Made by a program: the position numbers and the translations under genes. The notes beneath the pieces are model-generated. The model was not told the DNA's origin. It did not search any database and saw nothing but the letters and a program-made list of their open reading frames with translations. From a virus, in the IMG/VR virus record IMGVR_UViG_3300031539_000205, positions 1 to 30,211 of that record: a DNA stretch of 30,211 bases; one strand, given 5' to 3'. Of this stretch, positions 18,747 to 30,211 are shown in pieces. The number at the start of each line of letters is the position of its first letter. Position 1 is the first letter of the stretch.

Positions 18747-19510
18747 AAGACCATCCCTTTCCTGATTTCCTGGTAGATCGCCCCGTATTCCTCTCCACAC
18801 CATTCTACCAGGATCTTCCCTCCTCGGTCATGGGCAAACCCTTTCGGGCGATGGCCGACCCCGATACCGGACCTACCCGGCAGGCCCTTCATTCCGATCA
18901 CGGAGTCCCTCTCCGGCTCGAAGATGTCCAGGCGCCCGCCCGAGGACTGCCCAAGCTGCCAGAGCTTGGCGTCGATGCCCTTGTGGCCCAGGATCCCCTG
19001 CTGGCAGGCCTCGCGCAGGAGAGGAAACATGGACGACCTCATCCCCGTGGAGCAGAAGGCAGAGCCCCTGTTCCGGAACGTCCTGTAGGAAAGGCTGGGC
19101 AGGTGATAGTATTTCTGCCAGACCGTGCCCACCAGGTCGGAGTCCAGGAGCCTGCCGAACATCTCCGACAGATACCATTCCCGGTAGCAGTCGTCATCCT
19201 CCATGATGAGGAGCTTCTGTGAGGAGATGGCCTCCATGCCGGCCAGGACGTTCCTGGCTAGGCTCCTTGGCCCCTGGTCCTCCTTGATGAACTTCCTGCG
19301 GAGGTAGAAGACGGAGATGCCGAAGTTGGCCATCGTGCTCTCCCCGACCTCCGAGATGGCCCGAGCGCAGGCATTGGACTGCCCGTCGTCGACCAGGACC
19401 CACTCGACAAGGAGTCCTCGCAGGTTCACCTGGCGCATCAGAAATTGGCACAGGAGCTTGATGCTTTCGTAGCGGTCCCCCGTGGGCGTGATGATGCTGA
19501 TATTGTTCAT
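18743..19510 (-). CDS. Family 2 glycosyltransferase (GT-A fold)
   Basis: 255 residues. The N-terminus ISIITPTGDRYESIKLL is the usual GT2 first strand, DD41-42 in WVLVDDGQSN would bind the nucleotide, and the DDD at 105-107 (LIMEDDDCYREWYL) is the DxD metal site. FCSTGMRSSMF and a later acidic stretch complete a short GT-A domain. There is no membrane segment, so it should be cytoplasmic. An in-frame extension upstream lies over the GT-D-like gene and is shadow. ATG 19510 overlaps that gene's TGA. The donor and acceptor cannot be read from sequence. Confidence 0.85.
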   Translation of the reverse strand: MNNISIITPTGDRYESIKLLCQFLMRQVNLRGLLVEWVLVDDGQSNACARAISEVGESTMANFGISVFYLRRKFIKEDQGPRSLARNVLAGMEAISSQKLLIMEDDDCYREWYLSEMFGRLLDSDLVGTVWQKYYHLPSLSYRTFRNRGSAFCSTGMRSSMFPLLREACQQGILGHKGIDAKLWQLGQSSGGRLDIFEPERDSVIGMKGLPGRSGIGVGHRPKGFAHDRGGKILVEWCGEEYGAIYQEIRKGMVL

Positions 19511-20933: not shown

Positions 20934-21613
20934 TTGCTGCTCCTATCACTGAAGAAGGTAGCTCCAGGGAACTTGTAGTAGAGCCCAGGCAACCACCTGG
21001 CCCTGACACCGGCCTTCCAGATAGAGTAGTCGAAGCTCATCTGATCCCTGCCGTGGCGATATTTGTTGAACTCCTCGAACCAGATCCTGTTCATCTCTCG
21101 GATCTTGGGGCAGTTCCTGCGGATCAGGAACCCTCCACAGGACTGCTCCTTCTGGTCGAACCCCTGGGCCAGATAATCCGCCACCTGGTGATCGAGTAAG
21201 GGCCAGTCAGCCTCGCGGACCTTCCCGCATTCCTTCAGGGCCTGGGCCTCCTGGATGATGCTGGAGTGGCAAGGATGCTTGAAGCGGGCCAGGTCCATTG
21301 CCTTGGGCTGGAGGTATTTCCGGATCATGTCCTCCGGCATCATGCGGAGTTTGAAGCTGGCATCCATCCAGATCCAGTATTCCGCAGCCTTCTCCGGCCC
21401 ACCCTCGTGGCACATGATCTTGACCATGCGAGTCAGGTGGACAGGATCCGTGCCCTTGATCTCACGCCTCTCCCAAGGTCCGGAGATTGGAGGATGCCCG
21501 GGGGAGACGTAGGCTATGAACCTGGCCTTGGTCTTACGGGAGACGGACAGCTTCGGGATCCGAATCGTGTCGGAATGGTGACCTAGGCTGGCCGTCACCA
21601 CGTAGATCTTCAC
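20930..21613 (-). CDS. DUF616-like glycosyltransferase, copy B
   Basis: 227 residues, GTG start (21613) inside a GTGA overlap with the methyltransferase gene. YWIWMDASFKLR (Asp84) and GRDQMSFDYSIWKAGVRARW align with the equivalent motifs of the neighbour, so the two are tandem paralogues that have diverged strongly. The middle differs, with a longer insertion around SCGGFLIRRNCPKI. It probably transfers a different sugar or acts on the other's product; this is inference. Confidence 0.7.
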   Translation of the reverse strand: MKIYVVTASLGHHSDTIRIPKLSVSRKTKARFIAYVSPGHPPISGPWERREIKGTDPVHLTRMVKIMCHEGGPEKAAEYWIWMDASFKLRMMPEDMIRKYLQPKAMDLARFKHPCHSSIIQEAQALKECGKVREADWPLLDHQVADYLAQGFDQKEQSCGGFLIRRNCPKIREMNRIWFEEFNKYRHGRDQMSFDYSIWKAGVRARWLPGLYYKFPGATFFSDRSSK

Positions 21614-22206
21614 CCTCGCACCAGAGTCAGGAGGCCATGGCCGTAGGGGGCGTGCCGCTCGATGCGCCAGTGGGGATTGGCCGCCATGAACTCGTCGATG
21701 GCGAGGCGGATGCCGTGGGATGCCGGATCGAAGCAGGAGCGGTCATCCGGCTGGGGAAGGTAGGTCCCTGTCTCCAGGTTCGCCCCCATCGTGGCGAAGG
21801 TGATCGTGTCATGGAAGACGAGCCATTTCTTCGATTCGTTGCCCCACATGGACAGCTCGTTGCGCAGGTGCTTGTAGGTGTGGAGGGAGTCGAAGAAGAT
21901 CAGGTCTGGGGTCGCGCAGCCTGCGAAGGATGAGTAATCGATGGAGTTCCCCTCGAACAATCTCCACCTCTTCTTGTCCACGGCCTTCTTGAGCTGCCGG
22001 GCCTTGTTCGTGGTCACCAGGTCCACGCTGAACAACCTGCCCTCTGGAGGAAGGCCGGCCAAGAACGCGCTGGAGGAGTGGCCGCACTTCACACCCAGCT
22101 CCCAGATCGAGGTGCATTTGCCGGCCATTTCCTTCAGGTAAGGGAGGTGCTTGGCCGTGGCTACCCTGCTCGCGCAGTTGTTCCTGAAGATCTTTTCGAG
22201 CGACAT
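21610..22206 (-). CDS. Class I SAM-dependent methyltransferase (Methyltransf_24-like)
   Basis: 198 residues. SIWELGVKCGHSSSAFL (residues 33-50) is motif I for SAM binding, RLFSVDLV is motif II, and DLIFFDSLHTYKHLRNEL with KKWLVFHDT gives the FxDxxHxY...HD pattern typical of Methyltransf_24 enzymes, which often O-methylate small molecules or sugars. It lies among glycosyltransferases, so a sugar hydroxyl is the likely target. The start overlaps the upstream stop (TAATG). Confidence 0.8.
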   Translation of the reverse strand: MSLEKIFRNNCASRVATAKHLPYLKEMAGKCTSIWELGVKCGHSSSAFLAGLPPEGRLFSVDLVTTNKARQLKKAVDKKRWRLFEGNSIDYSSFAGCATPDLIFFDSLHTYKHLRNELSMWGNESKKWLVFHDTITFATMGANLETGTYLPQPDDRSCFDPASHGIRLAIDEFMAANPHWRIERHAPYGHGLLTLVRG

Positions 22207-23270: not shown

Positions 23271-23553
23271 CTGGCGCATCCCTCTTCGTGACACTGCCGG
23301 TCCGAATGTGGACCTTAGCATCGACCCCCAAGTCTATCACAATTTTTGTGAGTTGGCGTCGGAGGAGATGCGCTTTTTCCCAGGTTGGCGCCCTGAGGAT
23401 TGGCTTTATACGAGTCACTCCGATCTTTGCCAGGACCGACCACCAGCGATCCTTGGGAGGAGTCTGGGAGAAGTGGGGCCGGACCACGATGAACTCCGTG
23501 ACACCGGCCAGGTCGACCTCGGTGATCTGATCCTTCAGGAGGAGGGAGACCAT
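23254..23553 (-). CDS. Hypothetical protein after DNA polymerase
   Basis: 99 residues, starting MVSLLLKDQITEVDLAG and ending RDAPDEPVH. The ATG lies 19 bases inside the polymerase gene. Predicted strands (EFIVVRPHF) are followed by a basic helix (WEKAHLLRRQLTKIVI). A longer frame upstream overlaps the polymerase in antisense-like style and was discarded. No motif I recognise; replication-linked by position only. Confidence 0.6.
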   Translation of the reverse strand: MVSLLLKDQITEVDLAGVTEFIVVRPHFSQTPPKDRWWSVLAKIGVTRIKPILRAPTWEKAHLLRRQLTKIVIDLGVDAKVHIRTGSVTKRDAPDEPVH

Positions 23554-25577
23554 ATCTGCAGCCGTCCTTTCTCGTCTCGCACTGGTTCTGCCGCCTTGTC
23601 CCAGCGGCGCATAAGGCAGGGGGAAGCACCGATTGGAACGTCGGGCAGGATCAGGTGCATCTGGCTCTTCCAGATCTCCGCCACCTTGTCCGCCTTCTCT
23701 CCCATGTCCGGGCCCTCTGGGATCTCCAGGAGAATCTCGTCGTGGATGAAGGCCTGGGGGTAGCATCCCTTGAGGTCCCCGACGTAGCAGGCCTTTGCCA
23801 CCTCGAAGACGGCCAGCTTGGCTCCCTCAGCGGCTGGGCTCTGCAGGGCGGCCCCGTTGGCGCAGGCGCAGTAGGTGGCTCCGGCCCGATACATGCCGAG
23901 GGGCGTGGAGTAGCAGTAGGAGTCAGGATCGTATGGATCCTTGCACCCCCTGTTGACCCACTGGAAATAGTCCTTCATCTCCAGGTAGATGGCGAACCAA
24001 ATCTGCCTGAGCTGGACGGCCTCTTCTCGGGTCACCAGGACGTCGTAGGTGTCCTTGGCGTAGGTCACGAACGTGTCCGGCCCTAAACCGCCGGGGAACC
24101 CCAGGCCTGTCGGCTTGGCGAATTTGCGCCAGTGCCCGAAGAACTTCTTTGAGCCGGGCCAGCTCTTCAGCTTCAGAAATTCCCGGTAGATATCGTCCGG
24201 CTGGTCGCAACCGCTCCACTCCCTGAACTCCTCATCGAAGTGCCAGGCGAGCTGGGCCCCGAGGAACGCATGGAGATCGTAGCCGGCCATGACCTTGTCC
24301 CAGTGGACAGAGTAGCCGAACAGCGATTTCGTCTTCTGGGCCAGGGCCACAAGCTCCAGGGCAGAGTAGTCGATGGAGCAGATCACGAACCCGGGGCGGG
24401 CGACAAAGCAGCCCCTGGCCCGTGGGTCTACCTGCTGGATGTTGGTGGCCGGGTAGGGCTCCATCGGGGCTTCCTTGCGGTTACCGTAGGACGACGTGCG
24501 CCCAGTCTCCTTCAGGATATCGAAATTCGGATGGACCGAGTCGGCGGCCAGCTTGGGAAGCTCCGTGCCGGCCAGCCGGGCGAGGGCCTGCCGCTTCTGG
24601 TATTCCGCGAGGCGCTCGTCATAGGGCGCCAGCTCGGTGATCGTGCCGGCATCGGCCGCCACCTGGTCGGTCGCCGTCTTCTTGACTTCCCTTCCGTTCT
24701 TCTCGCACACCTCGACGATCACTTCCCCCAGCCTCTTGGTGTTGATGGAGGTGGGCTTTCCCTTGGTCGTGCCTTTGCCATTCTTGTAGGCCCGGGGAGG
24801 TTCAGATGGCCGAAGGATTCCAGATTGGATGAGGAGCTGCAGGTTGTCCTCGTGCAGGTCGACGGCCAGCTCCGCCGCCAGCTTGTCCCGGTGCTCCTGA
24901 TCGATCTTGAAGCCTCGGACGGTCATGAGGCGGAGCGCGAAGTCCACGGAGGTCTGGAAGGTGTGGGTCGTCATGGAGCCGGGGCCTGTAGGGTTCGCCT
25001 GCTTCTCCTGCTCCTCCCAGATCCTCAAGGTGTCGATGGCGTCCTGGATGGCGTAGCGCGAGGCCTCCTCGGGGTATTCGGAGATGGGCTTGCCGTCCAG
25101 CTCGCTGTAGCGCAGGCGCCAGGCATCGGGGGAGTTCTTCTCCTCGGACCTGTCCTCACCGAACCTGTTGAGGACGAGCGCGGCCAGGGAATAGGCGATC
25201 TTCTGCTCACTTCCGTCAGGCATGTAGAGCTTGTCGATCTTTCCGATGGTCGATAGGTTCAGGAGCTTCTCCCGGATGCGCGTGTCCGTCACTCTGTGCG
25301 CGTCCAGGGCCTTGAAGATGACGGGCAAGAGGTGCGGCCAGGTCCTGGCAATGACTGTCAGATCGTATGCGGTGTTGTGGCCGACGAGCAGCGTGTCCGG
25401 ATCGTCGAACAGGCTGTGAAGCAGGACCGGCAGGCTGTCGTCGCAAGAGGCCAGCAGATCCCTCTTGATGACCCCGTCGATACGTGAAGCAAACGACGCG
25501 CAGACCACCTTCGGCGCCACGGCATCTCCAGGGCCGATGAGATAGGTCTCCGTGTCGAATGCTACCACGTTCTTCAT
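23535..25577 (-). CDS. Family A DNA polymerase with 3'-5' exonuclease
   Basis: 680 residues, the phage replicase. The exonuclease domain is intact: VAFDTETYL (Asp8, Glu10), LVGHNTAYDL (Asp72) and YAIQDAIDT (Tyr175, Asp179). There is no 5'-3' exonuclease domain. The polymerase domain has motif A ICSIDYSALEL (Asp403), motif B RKFAKPTGLGFPGGLG (Arg484, Lys488) and motif C FIHDEILLE (Asp613). Motif B differs from canonical Pol I RxxxKxxxFGxxYG: the Phe762 position is Leu492 and the Tyr766 position is Gly496. ATG 25577, in an ATGA overlap, is preferred to a longer upstream frame that is shadow. A basic stretch near residue 265 (NGKGTTKGKP) looks like a loop insertion. Confidence 0.93.
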   Translation of the reverse strand: MKNVVAFDTETYLIGPGDAVAPKVVCASFASRIDGVIKRDLLASCDDSLPVLLHSLFDDPDTLLVGHNTAYDLTVIARTWPHLLPVIFKALDAHRVTDTRIREKLLNLSTIGKIDKLYMPDGSEQKIAYSLAALVLNRFGEDRSEEKNSPDAWRLRYSELDGKPISEYPEEASRYAIQDAIDTLRIWEEQEKQANPTGPGSMTTHTFQTSVDFALRLMTVRGFKIDQEHRDKLAAELAVDLHEDNLQLLIQSGILRPSEPPRAYKNGKGTTKGKPTSINTKRLGEVIVEVCEKNGREVKKTATDQVAADAGTITELAPYDERLAEYQKRQALARLAGTELPKLAADSVHPNFDILKETGRTSSYGNRKEAPMEPYPATNIQQVDPRARGCFVARPGFVICSIDYSALELVALAQKTKSLFGYSVHWDKVMAGYDLHAFLGAQLAWHFDEEFREWSGCDQPDDIYREFLKLKSWPGSKKFFGHWRKFAKPTGLGFPGGLGPDTFVTYAKDTYDVLVTREEAVQLRQIWFAIYLEMKDYFQWVNRGCKDPYDPDSYCYSTPLGMYRAGATYCACANGAALQSPAAEGAKLAVFEVAKACYVGDLKGCYPQAFIHDEILLEIPEGPDMGEKADKVAEIWKSQMHLILPDVPIGASPCLMRRWDKAAEPVRDEKGRLQIWSPSS

Positions 25578-26173: not shown

Positions 26174-26692
26174 TTATTCGAGTTCCGCCAGGCGCTCCTG
26201 CTCCTCGGCGGTGAGGAACTTCTCGATGACGTCGGCGGGGATCTTCTCCTTGATCTCCTCCGCGTCCAGGCTGCGGACGTAGTTGACCAAGGTGAAGGGC
26301 GTGTCCTTCTTGGTCATGACGATCTTGTTCTGCAGCTCCACGACGCGCCCGGACAGCGGCTGCTCGTCGGAAACCACTTCCATGGCCTCCTCCTCGCCCA
26401 CCTGGCTCTCTTCGACCGCCATCACGTTGGACACGAAGGCCTTGAAGTTGGGGAGGAAGGAGTCGTTCTTCCGCATGAGCAGTTGGCTCATCTGCTCCCC
26501 GGGGCGGTGCGCCTGCTCGGCCGGGTCCTCGGCCAGGGTGACCAGGTTCACCATCTCGATGGCGACGAAGTCATCCCCCTTGCGGGTCTTGTCCTGCTTC
26601 ACCCGGCGGATCAGCACCAGGTAGTGGCCGGCCTTGACGTAGTTGGCTCCACGGCTTGCTTTTGCGTCTTTGATCCCGTCGAAAAGTCCCAT
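26174..26692 (-). CDS. Hypothetical protein, possible OB-fold ssDNA-binding protein
   Basis: 172 residues, acidic at the end (FLTAEEQERLAELE). The N-terminus MGLFDGIKDAKASRGANYVK is followed by beta-rich text (GHYLVLIRRVKQDKTRKGDD, then FVAIEMVNLV) resembling the small OB-like phage proteins that bind single-stranded DNA. I cannot identify a named family. Position beside the helicase and upstream of the polymerase fits a replication accessory. A hairpin follows its stop. Confidence 0.65.
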   Translation of the reverse strand: MGLFDGIKDAKASRGANYVKAGHYLVLIRRVKQDKTRKGDDFVAIEMVNLVTLAEDPAEQAHRPGEQMSQLLMRKNDSFLPNFKAFVSNVMAVEESQVGEEEAMEVVSDEQPLSGRVVELQNKIVMTKKDTPFTLVNYVRSLDAEEIKEKIPADVIEKFLTAEEQERLAELE

Positions 26693-26694
26693 GT

Positions 26695-26874
26695 TCAGTT
26701 CTCCATTTCTTCTTCTTCGACACAGATCTCCGCTACACTGCGAAGGTTACGAATCCATTCTGAGAGCAGGTCTTCTTCGTCCTCCCGAAGATGCGGCCAG
26801 AACTCGCTCTGGTCAAACCTGTCGCACTCGTCCTTGATCTTGTCCCACCGGACCTGTTTCTTTGTCGTTTCCAT
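26695..26874 (-). CDS. Small acidic hypothetical protein
   Basis: 59 residues from ATG 26874 (a TTG two codons earlier is possible). It is helical and acidic, with FWPHLREDEEDLLSEWIRNL and an EEEEMEN end. Only 2 bases separate it from the 172-residue gene. No family is recognised; it could be a protein-binding partner of the neighbouring helicase. Confidence 0.55.
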   Translation of the reverse strand: METTKKQVRWDKIKDECDRFDQSEFWPHLREDEEDLLSEWIRNLRSVAEICVEEEEMEN

Positions 26875-26882
26875 GCCCAACT

Positions 26883-28967
26883 CTACTCCCCCTTGTCCGC
26901 GCTGTCAACACCGAATCTTTCCTGGAAAAATCTGACCTGCTCTGGGTTCAGCGGCTTGGGCTGGAGGCCCTTCTCTCTGAGGAACTCCTGAGAGTAGATA
27001 CGCGGCATGGGAGTGTGAGTTCCAAAGATTAGCTTCTGTCTCATTCCGGTCGTCTGCTGGATGTAGGTGGCATCCGACAACGTCGCGGCGTAGAGCACAT
27101 GCTCCCAGGTCATGGTGTGGAAGGTGTGGACCAGAAGCTCGTCCGCCGACTGCCCGTTGCGATGGGTCCTGCCGACGATCTGCTCGGCGTCCTTGGCAGG
27201 CCTGGGCCACTGGACGAAGCATTGGTTCTTGAAGTGCTGGAGGTTCTTGCCAATGCCGTGGGCCGGCATGGAGGCCACGCAGAGCTTCCCGGCGTTCCCG
27301 GGGTCGCAGATCCTGCGGTTGCCAGCCTCTCCAGCCGCGCACTCCAGCCCCGGCAGGCCGGCCTCCAGGAGCGCCTCCAGGATCCACCGGCCGATCTCCT
27401 GGTGGTAGACCCACAGGATGGCCCCTTCACCCCCCAGGGACTGGGCCCACTTCACGACATGGCGAATCTTGTAGTCGCACACCCGCACGGTGATGCTGTC
27501 CCGGTTCGGGCGCCCCTCGAAGTCCAGGTCCTTCATCCTTCGCCAGAGCCCGGCCAGCAGCCCTCCCACCTTCTTTCCGCCGTTGCGGGAGATCTCCGAC
27601 CCCACGAGCATGGGAGTGTCCATCCCCTTCGGGGGGTCGTGCAAGAACTCTCGGAGCCCAACAGCATACTCCTGAGCCGCATGGTGGTGCTCCTTGGCGC
27701 GATCTAGGCGGGAGGAGGCTTCCGACACGGGCAGGCCCTCGCGTGCAGCCAAGGCCTCTGGTTCGGGCCATACGAGAGAATTGAAGAATCCAGCCGACAG
27801 CTCATAGAGCCACTTGTATGTGTGGATGGCGTGCTCGATCTCGTCGCCGTTCGGCGTGAGGAATTTGTCCTGGACCTGGTTGATGAGGTGCTCCAAGTGG
27901 GTGAAGCCCTCCGCCGCCTCAGGCTTGTCCACTGGCAAATTCTGGAACACCAGGCTTGTGCCGATGTCTGAGTCGCTGGTGGAGACGACGCCAGGGCAGG
28001 TCGTGAGCCGGAGCCGGTAGGCCTTGCGGAGCCCAGGCTGGGTGGCAGGGAACTTCTCCGCCGGCTGGATGCCCTTGGCCCATTCGAGGAGTGGGAAGAG
28101 CACTCGCATCTGGTCGTCGTTGGGAGGCTCGCTCGTGGAGTCGAGGACGGCTCCCCACTCCTGGCACATGATCGGGCTGCGCGGCAGGGGGCAGTTCTCC
28201 CCCAGGCAGAACCGGATCAGGTGGGAGTAGTCGGAGATTCCCTTGGAGGTGATGGTCCCGGACAGGCAGACGAGCTGGGGATTGTGGTCCCGGATGAAAT
28301 TCATGAGACGCTTGGTCCGGGCCGCCGTCCTGTTCTTCAGGAGGTGAGCCTCGTCCGCGATGATCAGCCCCGGCTCGATGGTCTCTAGGATCTTCACGGA
28401 GTCTGTAGTGGACAGGAAGGAGTAGGGGATCACGTAGCAGCCGATCAGCCCCTTCTCGATCATGTGGGCCCTCTGCGCCTTGGTCTTCCCCGCCATCCCA
28501 TGAAACTGGACGGGCAACACGGTCCGCTTCCTGGCCCACGGGATATCCCGCTTGAAGAGCTGCTCATAGACCTGGGGCGGGACCAGGATCACAGAGCGGT
28601 GAATGTGCAGCTCCTTGTAGGCATGCGCCGCGATCAGGAGGGTGATCAGGGTCTTACCCTGCCCGACCCCGATGGGGGCGAAGAGCCCGCCGGCCTCGCG
28701 GTAGGCTGCTACGGCAGTGGCTTGGATGGGGAACAGGCGCCAGCCGGACTCGAACGTGTCCGCGAGGAGGACCTCACGGTTGAGCTTCTCCAGCTCGAAT
28801 TCCTTTGCAAGCTCCCGGATCGGCAGGTTGGTCACCCTTCTGACTTCTGCCACGTCCGGGGGAATATCCCGCCTCCCGATCCGGAGCCGCTCCAGTAGAC
28901 TGGAGGTTTTCTTCGGCTCCGGATCGGGCATCCGACCTCTCTCCTTCAGCTTGTCAAGGAGGCTCAC
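26883..28967 (-). CDS. SF2/SNF2-like DEAH-box helicase
   Basis: Up to 694 residues. Walker A IGVGQGKT (residues ~99-106), IIADEAHLLKN (DEAH, 205-208), LSGTITSKG (motif III, ~236-239) and QIVGRTHRNGQ (motif VI, near residue 620) form a full SF2 set; the HRNGQ ending resembles SNF2-type enzymes. Phage helicases of this type open origins or remodel DNA for replication or recombination. A GTG at 28967 starts the longest frame; ATG 28931 (MPDPEPKK) has a better site (AAGGAG, 9-base spacer). I keep the longer form because its first residues match those of two neighbouring proteins. Confidence 0.87.
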   Translation of the reverse strand: MSLLDKLKERGRMPDPEPKKTSSLLERLRIGRRDIPPDVAEVRRVTNLPIRELAKEFELEKLNREVLLADTFESGWRLFPIQATAVAAYREAGGLFAPIGVGQGKTLITLLIAAHAYKELHIHRSVILVPPQVYEQLFKRDIPWARKRTVLPVQFHGMAGKTKAQRAHMIEKGLIGCYVIPYSFLSTTDSVKILETIEPGLIIADEAHLLKNRTAARTKRLMNFIRDHNPQLVCLSGTITSKGISDYSHLIRFCLGENCPLPRSPIMCQEWGAVLDSTSEPPNDDQMRVLFPLLEWAKGIQPAEKFPATQPGLRKAYRLRLTTCPGVVSTSDSDIGTSLVFQNLPVDKPEAAEGFTHLEHLINQVQDKFLTPNGDEIEHAIHTYKWLYELSAGFFNSLVWPEPEALAAREGLPVSEASSRLDRAKEHHHAAQEYAVGLREFLHDPPKGMDTPMLVGSEISRNGGKKVGGLLAGLWRRMKDLDFEGRPNRDSITVRVCDYKIRHVVKWAQSLGGEGAILWVYHQEIGRWILEALLEAGLPGLECAAGEAGNRRICDPGNAGKLCVASMPAHGIGKNLQHFKNQCFVQWPRPAKDAEQIVGRTHRNGQSADELLVHTFHTMTWEHVLYAATLSDATYIQQTTGMRQKLIFGTHTPMPRIYSQEFLREKGLQPKPLNPEQVRFFQERFGVDSADKGE

Positions 28968-28970
28968 AGT

Positions 28971-29285
28971 TCAGAACTTCTTTCCCCCATGCCGATACGC
29001 ACGGGTGTCGTTGTAATCCATCTTCGCCCGGAGGGCCCCGATGAGGTCCAGCTTCAGCTCCTTGGCCATGTCCAGGATTCTGATGATCGTGTCCGCCAGC
29101 TCCTCCTCGACCCCGGAAAACTCCGGGATCTTGTCGCTCTGCATGTTCACCCTCTCGGCCTCCAGGGCCTCGGACAACTCCGAGTGGACGAGAGCGATCA
29201 AGGTCCCGAACTCCCTGGGCTTGTCCCACCAGCCCTTGTCGTGGGCATACTGGTTGATCCGGTCCATGAGATCCTGGATGCGCAT
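28971..29285 (-). CDS. MazG-like nucleotide pyrophosphohydrolase
   Basis: 104 residues. VHSELSEALEAER (Glu36, Glu39) and EEELADTIIRILD (Glu62, Asp65) form the ExxE...ExxD metal-binding set of all-alpha MazG proteins. KMDYNDTRAYRHGGKKF is the usual C-terminal signature of phage-borne members. It would hydrolyse (d)NTPs to monophosphates or, as suggested for phage MazG, lower host (p)ppGpp. ATG 29285 overlaps the upstream TGA (TGATG); a longer frame upstream is shadow of the AT-hook gene. Confidence 0.88.
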   Translation of the reverse strand: MRIQDLMDRINQYAHDKGWWDKPREFGTLIALVHSELSEALEAERVNMQSDKIPEFSGVEEELADTIIRILDMAKELKLDLIGALRAKMDYNDTRAYRHGGKKF

Positions 29286-30121
29286 CAGATTCCCTCCACG
29301 ATGTTCTCGAACCGGGAGCGGAGGCCCTGGACGAATGCCTTCATCTCGGGGGTCGAGTCCGGGGCCGCCACGAACACGTCGGTCAGGATCTCGACATGCC
29401 CTGCCGCGAGGGTGAGCATGTCCCGGCGCTTGAAAACATCCAGGGACCAGAAGCTGTCGGGAGCATCGTCCCCGAGGTCGGCCAGGATCAAGGCCATGGC
29501 AGCCTTGAAGATCCGCTCCACGCAGTTCACGGTCCGGCCCACAGGCATGCACCGGACGTAGAGCGTCGGCCCTTCCGGGGGCTCCACAGGGAACGTGCCG
29601 GCCGACACGATCCTGGCCTCGGGCGGCAGGTAGGCTTCCGGTGGGAAGGGCGTCGTCTGGATGGGCTTGGCGATCTCGTTGAGCATCGCCGGGGGTTCCT
29701 CCTTCAGCGGCTTGACTTCCTCCTCAACCCCAGTCTGGCCCGTGATCTCGATGGGCGTCTTGTTCTTGCTCCCCTTGGGCCGGCCCCGGCGCTTCGGCTT
29801 CTCCTCGGCAGGTCCGGGGACTTCCGGGGGGACTTCCGGGGCGACTTCCGGGGCGTCTGCTGGGGAGTTTGGAGGAGCCGGTGCCGGCTCCGGAGCGCTG
29901 GCGGTCTCAACGACGGGCGCGGGCTCCGGAGTCGGGGCCGGTGGAACTTCCATGTCCTTGTTGGAATCCATGCAGGCCTTGCACGGGAACCCCTTGGAAT
30001 TCTGGCCCTTCCCTCCGCAGGCGATGCAGGGTATGGCGACTTTGGGATCCTCGACGGCCGGAGCTTCGGGCTCGGCCTGGCATGGCAGCTTCTTCTTCTT
30101 CATCTTGTCGAACAGCGACAT
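29285..30121 (-). CDS. Zinc-finger / AT-hook protein of unknown function
   Basis: 278 residues in four parts: basic N-terminus MSLFDKMKKKKLPC; a four-cysteine finger IPCIACGGKGQNSKGFPCKA (Cys32, 35, 47, 50), like DnaJ-type fingers; a Pro/Ala/Glu-rich linker (~55-108) ending in the AT-hook EKPKRRGRPKGSKNK; and a C-terminal domain of ~125 residues with TLYVRCMPVGRTVNCVERIF. Binding to AT-rich minor groove by the hook is established for that motif. ATG 30121 has AAAAGGAG nine bases upstream. The frame is open to the right window edge, so a longer form cannot be excluded. Confidence 0.75.
   Translation of the reverse strand: MSLFDKMKKKKLPCQAEPEAPAVEDPKVAIPCIACGGKGQNSKGFPCKACMDSNKDMEVPPAPTPEPAPVVETASAPEPAPAPPNSPADAPEVAPEVPPEVPGPAEEKPKRRGRPKGSKNKTPIEITGQTGVEEEVKPLKEEPPAMLNEIAKPIQTTPFPPEAYLPPEARIVSAGTFPVEPPEGPTLYVRCMPVGRTVNCVERIFKAAMALILADLGDDAPDSFWSLDVFKRRDMLTLAAGHVEILTDVFVAAPDSTPEMKAFVQGLRSRFENIVEGI
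29818..29854 (-). repeat. Three 12-bp tandem repeats in the AT-hook gene linker
   Basis: The core gacttccgggg recurs three times at 12-base steps and encodes the APEVAPEVPPEVP stretch. In-frame slippage would lengthen or shorten the flexible linker by four residues per copy. Confidence 0.7.
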
Positions 30122-30211
30122 TTCTTCCGTCTCCTTTTGGTCAAACTGCTGACCCGACTTGTCTATGATCTGCTTGATCCTCTTGGTGTAGTCCTTGATC
30201 GAATTCTTTCC
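30122..30211 (-). other. Right edge: open frame continuing into the AT-hook gene
   Basis: On the minus strand the last 90 bases stay open in the same frame as the AT-hook gene (KNSIKDYTKRIKQIIDKSGQ...), while the other two frames meet stops. The text looks coding. It is either an N-terminal extension of that protein starting outside the window, or leader sequence before ATG 30121, which has its own good ribosome binding site. Confidence 0.4.

Follow-up and report, generated by a model that had tools for sequence, protein, structure and literature searches.

Cas11 small subunits are translated from in-frame starts that lie inside large-subunit genes, as for Cas11b within cas8b (PMC11899642). 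The layout given there comprises one open reading frame (ORF), an internal methionine codon with a Shine-Dalgarno (SD)-like sequence, and a product that corresponds to the C-terminal region of the large protein. We predict the same layout for a phage nuclease gene at the edge of IMG/VR virus record IMGVR_UViG_3300031539_000205 (positions 1 to 30,211; 30,211 bases, possibly a fragment), referred to here in its whole length as the window. T7 gene 4A/4B and lambda C/Nu3 are further in-frame internal-start pairs in phages. Like the gene described here, they hold a nested in-frame product inside a phage gene; the proteins differ, and in our case the site is seen again in lineages grouped at 55% helicase identity. 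Unlike in Cas11 systems, the large protein here is a phage PD-(D/E)XK nuclease, and the predicted short product has an AT-hook and an orphan fold. A literature search, which most subscription papers lay beyond, turned up no report of a phage nuclease gene with an internal start.

The nuclease belongs with the Cas4/RecB-type PD-(D/E)XK phage exonucleases (phrog_69, PF12705), which share its nuclease domain and four conserved cysteines. It differs from them in an extra long tail with an internal start; a distant homologue in A3Wally is annotated as a gene of 936 bases and lacks a comparable extension. We regard the predicted nested in-frame gene, which the initial annotation missed, as the main feature of the locus, and the comparative support for it is strong. 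If it is real, the short product, being nested in frame within the nuclease gene, escapes gene callers in many phage lineages. Phages would then have an equivalent of the Cas11-type nested genes, and the locus would add a small domain for which the searched libraries contain no recognised relative, and an idea of how a phage nuclease, helicase and single-strand DNA-binding protein (SSB) meet.

A nuclease gene with a predicted internal start

The initial annotation described an AT-hook protein beginning MSLFDKMKKKK. The peptide is indeed encoded from ATG 30121 on the minus strand, but it lies inside a larger ORF and the 5' end of the gene is elsewhere. The window ends 90 bases upstream of this ATG with no stop codon in between, and those bases (30122..30211, minus strand) cover the 30 nuclease codons that directly precede the internal start, stop-free, in frame and cut by the window edge (GKNSIKDYTKRIKQIIDKSGQQFDQKETEE). 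The rest of the gene is found on a sister contig (L004, IMG/VR 3300031566_000287), which shows 3 mismatches in 8,924 bases against the window (99.97% identity) and extends about 7.8 kb upstream past its edge. There the AT-hook frame is continuous with the nuclease in one 573-aa ORF (L004:7050-8771), the whole nuclease part covering L004:7050-7934 and MSLFDKMKKKK running from residue 296. With the upstream frame open, ATG 30121 was rejected as the sole start of an AT-hook gene.

The first half of the 573-aa ORF matches PF12705, a PD-(D/E)XK nuclease family (E 7.8e-15; 55.9 bits against a curated cut-off of 22), and the ORF matches the phrog_69 exonuclease (E 8e-19). D127, D138-H-K140, C14, C252, C258 and C264 are invariant in a four-sequence alignment (A6); in this family, the first two elements form the active site D...DxK and the four cysteines are iron-sulfur (Fe-S) ligands. 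Nuclease and linker likewise lie in a single ORF, in the same gene order, in MW202816 and in two other loci (L007 and L008). Judged by these matches, what was annotated as an AT-hook gene is the 3' portion of a longer phage gene, which encodes a long-tailed PD-(D/E)XK nuclease of the four-cysteine (Cas4/RecB) type.

Nine nucleotides before the internal ATG we read an SD-like AAGGAG in the sequence (30131..30136, minus strand). For comparison, 128 loci with distinct helicase ORFs were gathered by scans, L001 and L002, both from the window's own phage, among them, and were joined by single linkage at 55% helicase identity into 83 clusters ("lineages"); 96 of the 128 carry a nuclease ORF. Excluding 21 of these 96 ORFs (for an E value above 1e-10, insufficient length or lack of the Fe-S pattern; L059 was among them) left 75 in 52 clusters. 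The test region was a fixed 55 codons after the Fe-S cysteines, chosen, like the motifs, after the sequences had been read, and the controls were one random window per lineage from the nuclease domain, the rest of the tail and the helicase/polymerase interiors.

An in-frame ATG with an SD core was present in 39 of 52 lineages, compared with 5 of 52 in each of the three control sets (Fisher 4e-12), and Met-Ser was present in the 55-codon test region in 28 of 52 lineages, compared with 2, 3 and 1 of 52 in the controls. Serine followed 31 of 99 linker methionines; elsewhere (n=341) it was outside the six commonest residues after Met. Reading by eye, we found an in-frame Met, often Met-Ser-Leu-Leu, at a similar place after the Fe-S cysteines in many homologues. 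Lineage fractions by 20-codon bin after the domain were 0.39 and 0.26, then 0.08 in the third bin and 0 to 0.06 in the others (63 lineages). Synonymous-codon shuffles of the upstream sequence, limited to the 50 clusters having an ATG, gave an expectation of 20.7 lineages with an SD; 40 were observed, a count reached by 0 of 100,000 simulations. The 307 ATGs taken as controls from within the nuclease domain showed no such excess (0.107 observed against 0.118 expected).

A single lineage carries the tail domain apart from the nuclease. In L059 the nuclease ends 14 residues past the last cysteine, and the ATG of the tail, reading M-S-L-F-D-E-L, overlaps that end in another frame. This separate tail gene bears the same C-terminal domain (E 2e-9), and its N-terminus has the top score of 1,348 other genes against a profile of tail starts. 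The tail has therefore had its own start at this place at least once, which supports a free tail product indirectly.

Several results weigh against the use of the internal site. About half of the SD signal follows from amino-acid content (20.7 of 40), and the SD of the window's own gene is no stronger than in synonymous shuffles (fraction 0.6), so the claim stands on the lineage set and not on this gene alone. The combined SD and ATG signal is missing in 13 of 52 lineages, and the tail start of L059 lacks an SD core as defined here. The tail domain lies in frame in the nuclease ORF at 68 loci in 45 lineages (64 loci and 43 lineages when only complete ORFs are counted). Because the tail is mostly fused, the fusion must be of importance, and the internal site may see little use. 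In 28 of the 96 nuclease ORFs the tail domain went undetected, and 22 of their lineages have no fused member. One could then suppose that the internal ATG and its SD are the relic of two fused genes, that only the fusion is made now, and that the peptide is the first helix of the linker. The 45 lineages with the tail in frame, the two-gene state of L059 and the SD cases that amino-acid content alone yields fit such a history. A relic should decay, however, whereas Met-Ser is kept in the linkers and SD cores exceed the synonymous shuffles across the lineages formed at 55% helicase identity, and we consider this history improbable. The internal ATG is very probably a real, conserved second start in frame with the nuclease, and that the free tail has a role as well is likely, if less firmly so.

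These patterns would be best explained if the gene gave two products, in the manner of Cas11. Ribosomes starting at the upstream GTG would make the nuclease-tail fusion, and ribosomes starting at the internal ATG behind AAGGAG would make the tail alone, with MSLFDKMKKKK as its N-terminus, so that one gene would yield both a fusion and a free AT-hook tail. On the Cas11 model, the free tail would probably join the fusion in one complex and determine its stoichiometry on DNA. The MSLxxKL peptide would then be the free N-terminus of the short product and may form a short docking helix. The leading candidate partner would be the SSB, whose own N-terminal arm is similar; the helicase would carry two copies. 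We infer the existence of both products, their co-assembly and the docking alike.

A similar peptide in the helicase and the SSB

The initial annotation proposed that the peptide is a docking tag common to three proteins. Its readings of the other two N-termini were correct. The SNF2/DEAD-like helicase (26883..28967, minus strand; Pfam DEAD 2.7e-9, SNF2-rel 3e-7) begins MSLLDKLKERG when read from GTG 28967, with a second stretch, SSLLERLRIG, at residues 22-31, and the OB-fold protein (26174..26692, minus strand) begins MGLFDGIKDAK from ATG 26692. As to the tag itself, the peptides are present and partly conserved; one of them, however, is internal to a larger ORF, distant helicases lack it, and tail and SSB do not covary. 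The annotation had also considered that the peptide might have no further members in the genome, which is nearly so: one additional gene (21610-22206, minus strand) begins MSLEKIFRNN and fits a loose pattern but not a strict one. A lack of conservation in homologues, by contrast, was not what we found, since the tail start recurs widely, the SSB N-terminus is present in many relatives and the helicase stretch in nine near relatives.

The start of the helicase, which the initial annotation also named as a check on the tag, is itself in question. ATG 28931 has an upstream SD core and was picked by the automatic caller, whereas GTG 28967 has none. The two peptide copies (28935-28967 and 28875-28904, minus strand) could be aligned in nine near relatives, picked by eye from fourteen at 39% identity or more; L016, L017, L019, L022 and L036, whose N-termini seemed less similar, were not included. 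In these nine, two L..[KR][LIV]..R-type stretches align despite variable linker length, with few columns reaching 70% identity. This alignment in chosen relatives favours GTG 28967 as the start, although the SD favours ATG 28931. The SD of ATG 28931 lies within the KLKERG codons. A second helicase isoform from ATG 28931 is possible.

The SSB was assigned from phrog_378, AlphaFold2 and Foldseek. The phrog_378 match (E 3e-4) covers residues 2-50 only and is made by 1 of the 21 members of alignment A10. The single-chain AlphaFold2 model has a mean predicted local distance difference test (pLDDT) score of 92.6, with 88 for residues 1-10 and 69 for residues 11-20. The arm MGLFDGIKDAK is encoded at 26660-26692, and many SSB relatives share an N-terminus of the form M[GS]xFxGI (an unselected set in which some starts are unclear), the cluster L072-L084 being without it. 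In a 21-row alignment M1 is invariant and F4 is conserved in at least 90% of rows, these rows having been selected by a pattern of which the motif is a part.

The best structural match of the SSB model is PrgE, an OB-fold SSB of plasmid pCF10 (Foldseek E 1.3e-5, probability 1.00; VIA Z 8.2, root-mean-square deviation (rmsd) 5.0, 106 aligned), at 17-19% identity; a PDB profile search with the SSB alignment gave no match. Both proteins have an OB fold with a short segment before it. The N-terminal tail of PrgE binds the neighbouring subunit, and PrgE without its 12 N-terminal residues is monomeric at 300 mM NaCl (PMC11137577). By analogy, this likeness suggests that the phage peptides could dock on the SSB. 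In L139 the sequence of the nuclease linker is SPFAGIENIKTEKEN, and the SSB of the same locus begins MSIFAGIGNVKATEQ; in L103 the linker reads NPFAGISEV and the SSB GVFGGIGGV. A copy of the SSB arm inside the nuclease is possible in these two loci.

Likeness among the three N-termini was measured with a leave-cluster-out profile of tail starts, applied to automatically called starts. Against other genes, the area under the curve (AUC) was 0.82 for SSBs (p 8e-10), 0.63 for helicases (p 6e-5), 0.54 for nucleases and 0.46 for polymerases. The SSB ranked first on its contig for likeness to the tail N-terminus in 4 of 18 phages (window, 1 of 21 genes; L011, 1 of 17; L013, 1 of 16; L152, 1 of 7). 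The strict and loose patterns, both written after the sequences were seen, matched 9 and 14 of 52 tails, 12 and 42 of 1,348 other genes and 0 and 1 of 75 polymerases, respectively; the loose pattern also matched 9 of 30 SSBs. With ten starts set by eye and five automatic ones, the window helicase and its fourteen near relatives gave 5 strict and 7 loose matches in 15. Two motif types exceeded shuffles in the linkers (11 against 0.4 and 9 against 1.7), and the first did so in helicase N-termini (4 against 0.56) and leaned that way in nuclease domains (6 against 2.9, p 0.055).

Other results count against a shared docking peptide. Over the 18 phages the median percentile of the SSB N-terminus was 0.45, the strict pattern matched 0 of 30 SSB lineages, and tail and SSB peptides resembled each other no more within a phage than between phages (p 0.34), on which ground a strict within-phage peptide code was rejected. 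With automatic starts alone, the same 15 helicases gave 2 strict and 3 loose matches (p 0.01 each). Under stricter rules for helicase starts, which dropped 84 loci, the AUC was 0.66 and only 3 of 32 lineages lay above the 95th percentile; a peptide common to all helicases was therefore rejected. The distant helicase homologues of L007, L008 and MW202816 lack the peptide. The second motif (F-x-[GAK]) is above shuffles in polymerases as well (46 against 29.8). The structural alignment of SSB with PrgE begins at residue 18 (residue 15 in PrgE), past the arm, and the arm of PrgE is different and polar (MKYERPLKRES, from the gene taken for prgE). The similarity of the three proteins is thus suggestive in the window's clade and partial elsewhere, and could stem from convergence as well as from a common partner.

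Short N-terminal helices are common, and M-S/G followed by a short amphipathic helix may have arisen in the three N-termini with no partner in common. We give such convergence slightly less than an even chance: it agrees with the low helicase AUC, the 2 of 15 strict matches at automatic helicase starts, the missing covariation and the unrelated-looking gene of the same phage that also starts MSLEKIF, but it sits poorly with a match rate of just 0.9 to 3.1% in the 1,348 other genes of the same contigs, with the near absence of matches in polymerases, and with the two helicase stretches that align in ten chosen sequences across variable linkers, even if few columns there reach 70% identity. In another scheme, SSB subunits would be linked by their N-terminal peptide as in PrgE, and the groove of the SSB filament that takes this peptide would also take the tail and helicase copies. 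The PrgE-like model, the monomeric state of truncated PrgE, the recurring M[GS]xFxGI and the SSB-arm-like PFxG[IV] stretches in the linkers of L103, L139 and L074 speak for this mimicry; many lineages have no match, however, covariation within phages is lacking, the L072-L084 SSBs have no arm motif, and the PrgE arm is both polar and outside the structural alignment. We regard it as doubtful, and docking of the peptide on the SSB as unlikely to the same degree. The combined scheme, in which a hidden start in the nuclease gene of a widespread phage replication/recombination module gives an extra protein and the free tail, the fusion and the helicase are recruited to the SSB filament through interchangeable copies of the SSB oligomerization arm, would be less likely again. 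A host sliding clamp is the least probable partner. Clamp-binding motifs read QL[SD]LF; EMSLF in the window resembles the end of such a motif, and the homologue in L119 reads AQMSLID, but the window tail has no Gln at the first motif position and the residue before Met is K, T, F or P in L011, L060, L087 and L089. For want of that Gln, clamp binding was rejected as the main interpretation.

The tail domain and the replication module

The predicted tail protein of 278 aa (29285..30121, minus strand, from ATG 30121) consists of the peptide MSLFDKMKKKK, a Pro/Ala-rich linker, an AT-hook and a C-terminal domain. AT-hooks are defined by a GRP core between basic residues, and the tail contains an AT-hook-like KRRGRPKG (29771..29794, minus strand), with the GRP core and flanking basic residues. 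The pattern [KR]..GRP was present in the tails of 27 of 64 lineages, compared with the nuclease domains of 7 of 64. A zinc-knuckle-like CxxC...CxxC stretch (CIACGGKGQNSKGFPCKAC; 29972..30028, minus strand) has a pattern that recurs in the tails of 8 of 64 lineages.

The C-terminal domain (LYVxCxP...; 29288..29575, minus strand) was modelled by AlphaFold2 from 37 sequences as a small alpha/beta fold with a mean pLDDT of 92.7. Foldseek with this model gave nothing at E <= 0.001 in PDB or BFVD, and a Pfam scan matched 0 of the 37 members. A PHROGs scan returned four PHROGs, with one weak member each and none consistent, and the best VIA-align result (Z 6.0, rmsd 3.8, 90 aligned) is below the informative level, in a range that the tool describes as common. 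As modelled, the domain appears to be an orphan fold with no recognised relative in the searched libraries. The nuclease tails of L028, L096, L026 and L101 contain several LLxKL-like stretches with Pro/Ala-rich linkers between them, like repeated short binding motifs, and the short nuclease of L118, without a detected tail domain, ends in a repeated motif, DPFAAFKN...DPFAFF.

The gene is part of a replication module on the minus strand with the order nuclease/AT-hook, pyrophosphatase, SNF2/DEAD-like helicase, small ORF, SSB, Zn-ribbon protein and family A polymerase. The MazG-like pyrophosphatase gene (28971..29282, minus strand; phrog_3301, E 3e-31) lies between the nuclease-tail and the helicase, and the family A DNA polymerase is encoded at 23535..25574 (minus strand; Pfam DNA_pol_A, 1.4e-13). 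Upstream on the sister contig there is a DUF5906 primase/helicase-like gene (L004:4000-6609), and the module thus reaches past the window. At window position 19469 the BLAST alignment to the sister contig stops though the sister sequence goes on, and the two may diverge there.

Single-protein scans of viral contigs recovered the sister contig alone, and tblastn with the SSB and the tail against the phage collection gave no match. A scan of genome contigs gave 23 loci, mostly weak helicase matches, that were left unused. MW202816 (ctsHD2, Manatee Spring) has the same order of nuclease-tail, small gene, helicase, SSB-like gene and polymerase. Its helicase differs in having no N-terminal peptide; like the window phage, it carries a similar sequence, MSLLNRSKK, after the nuclease.

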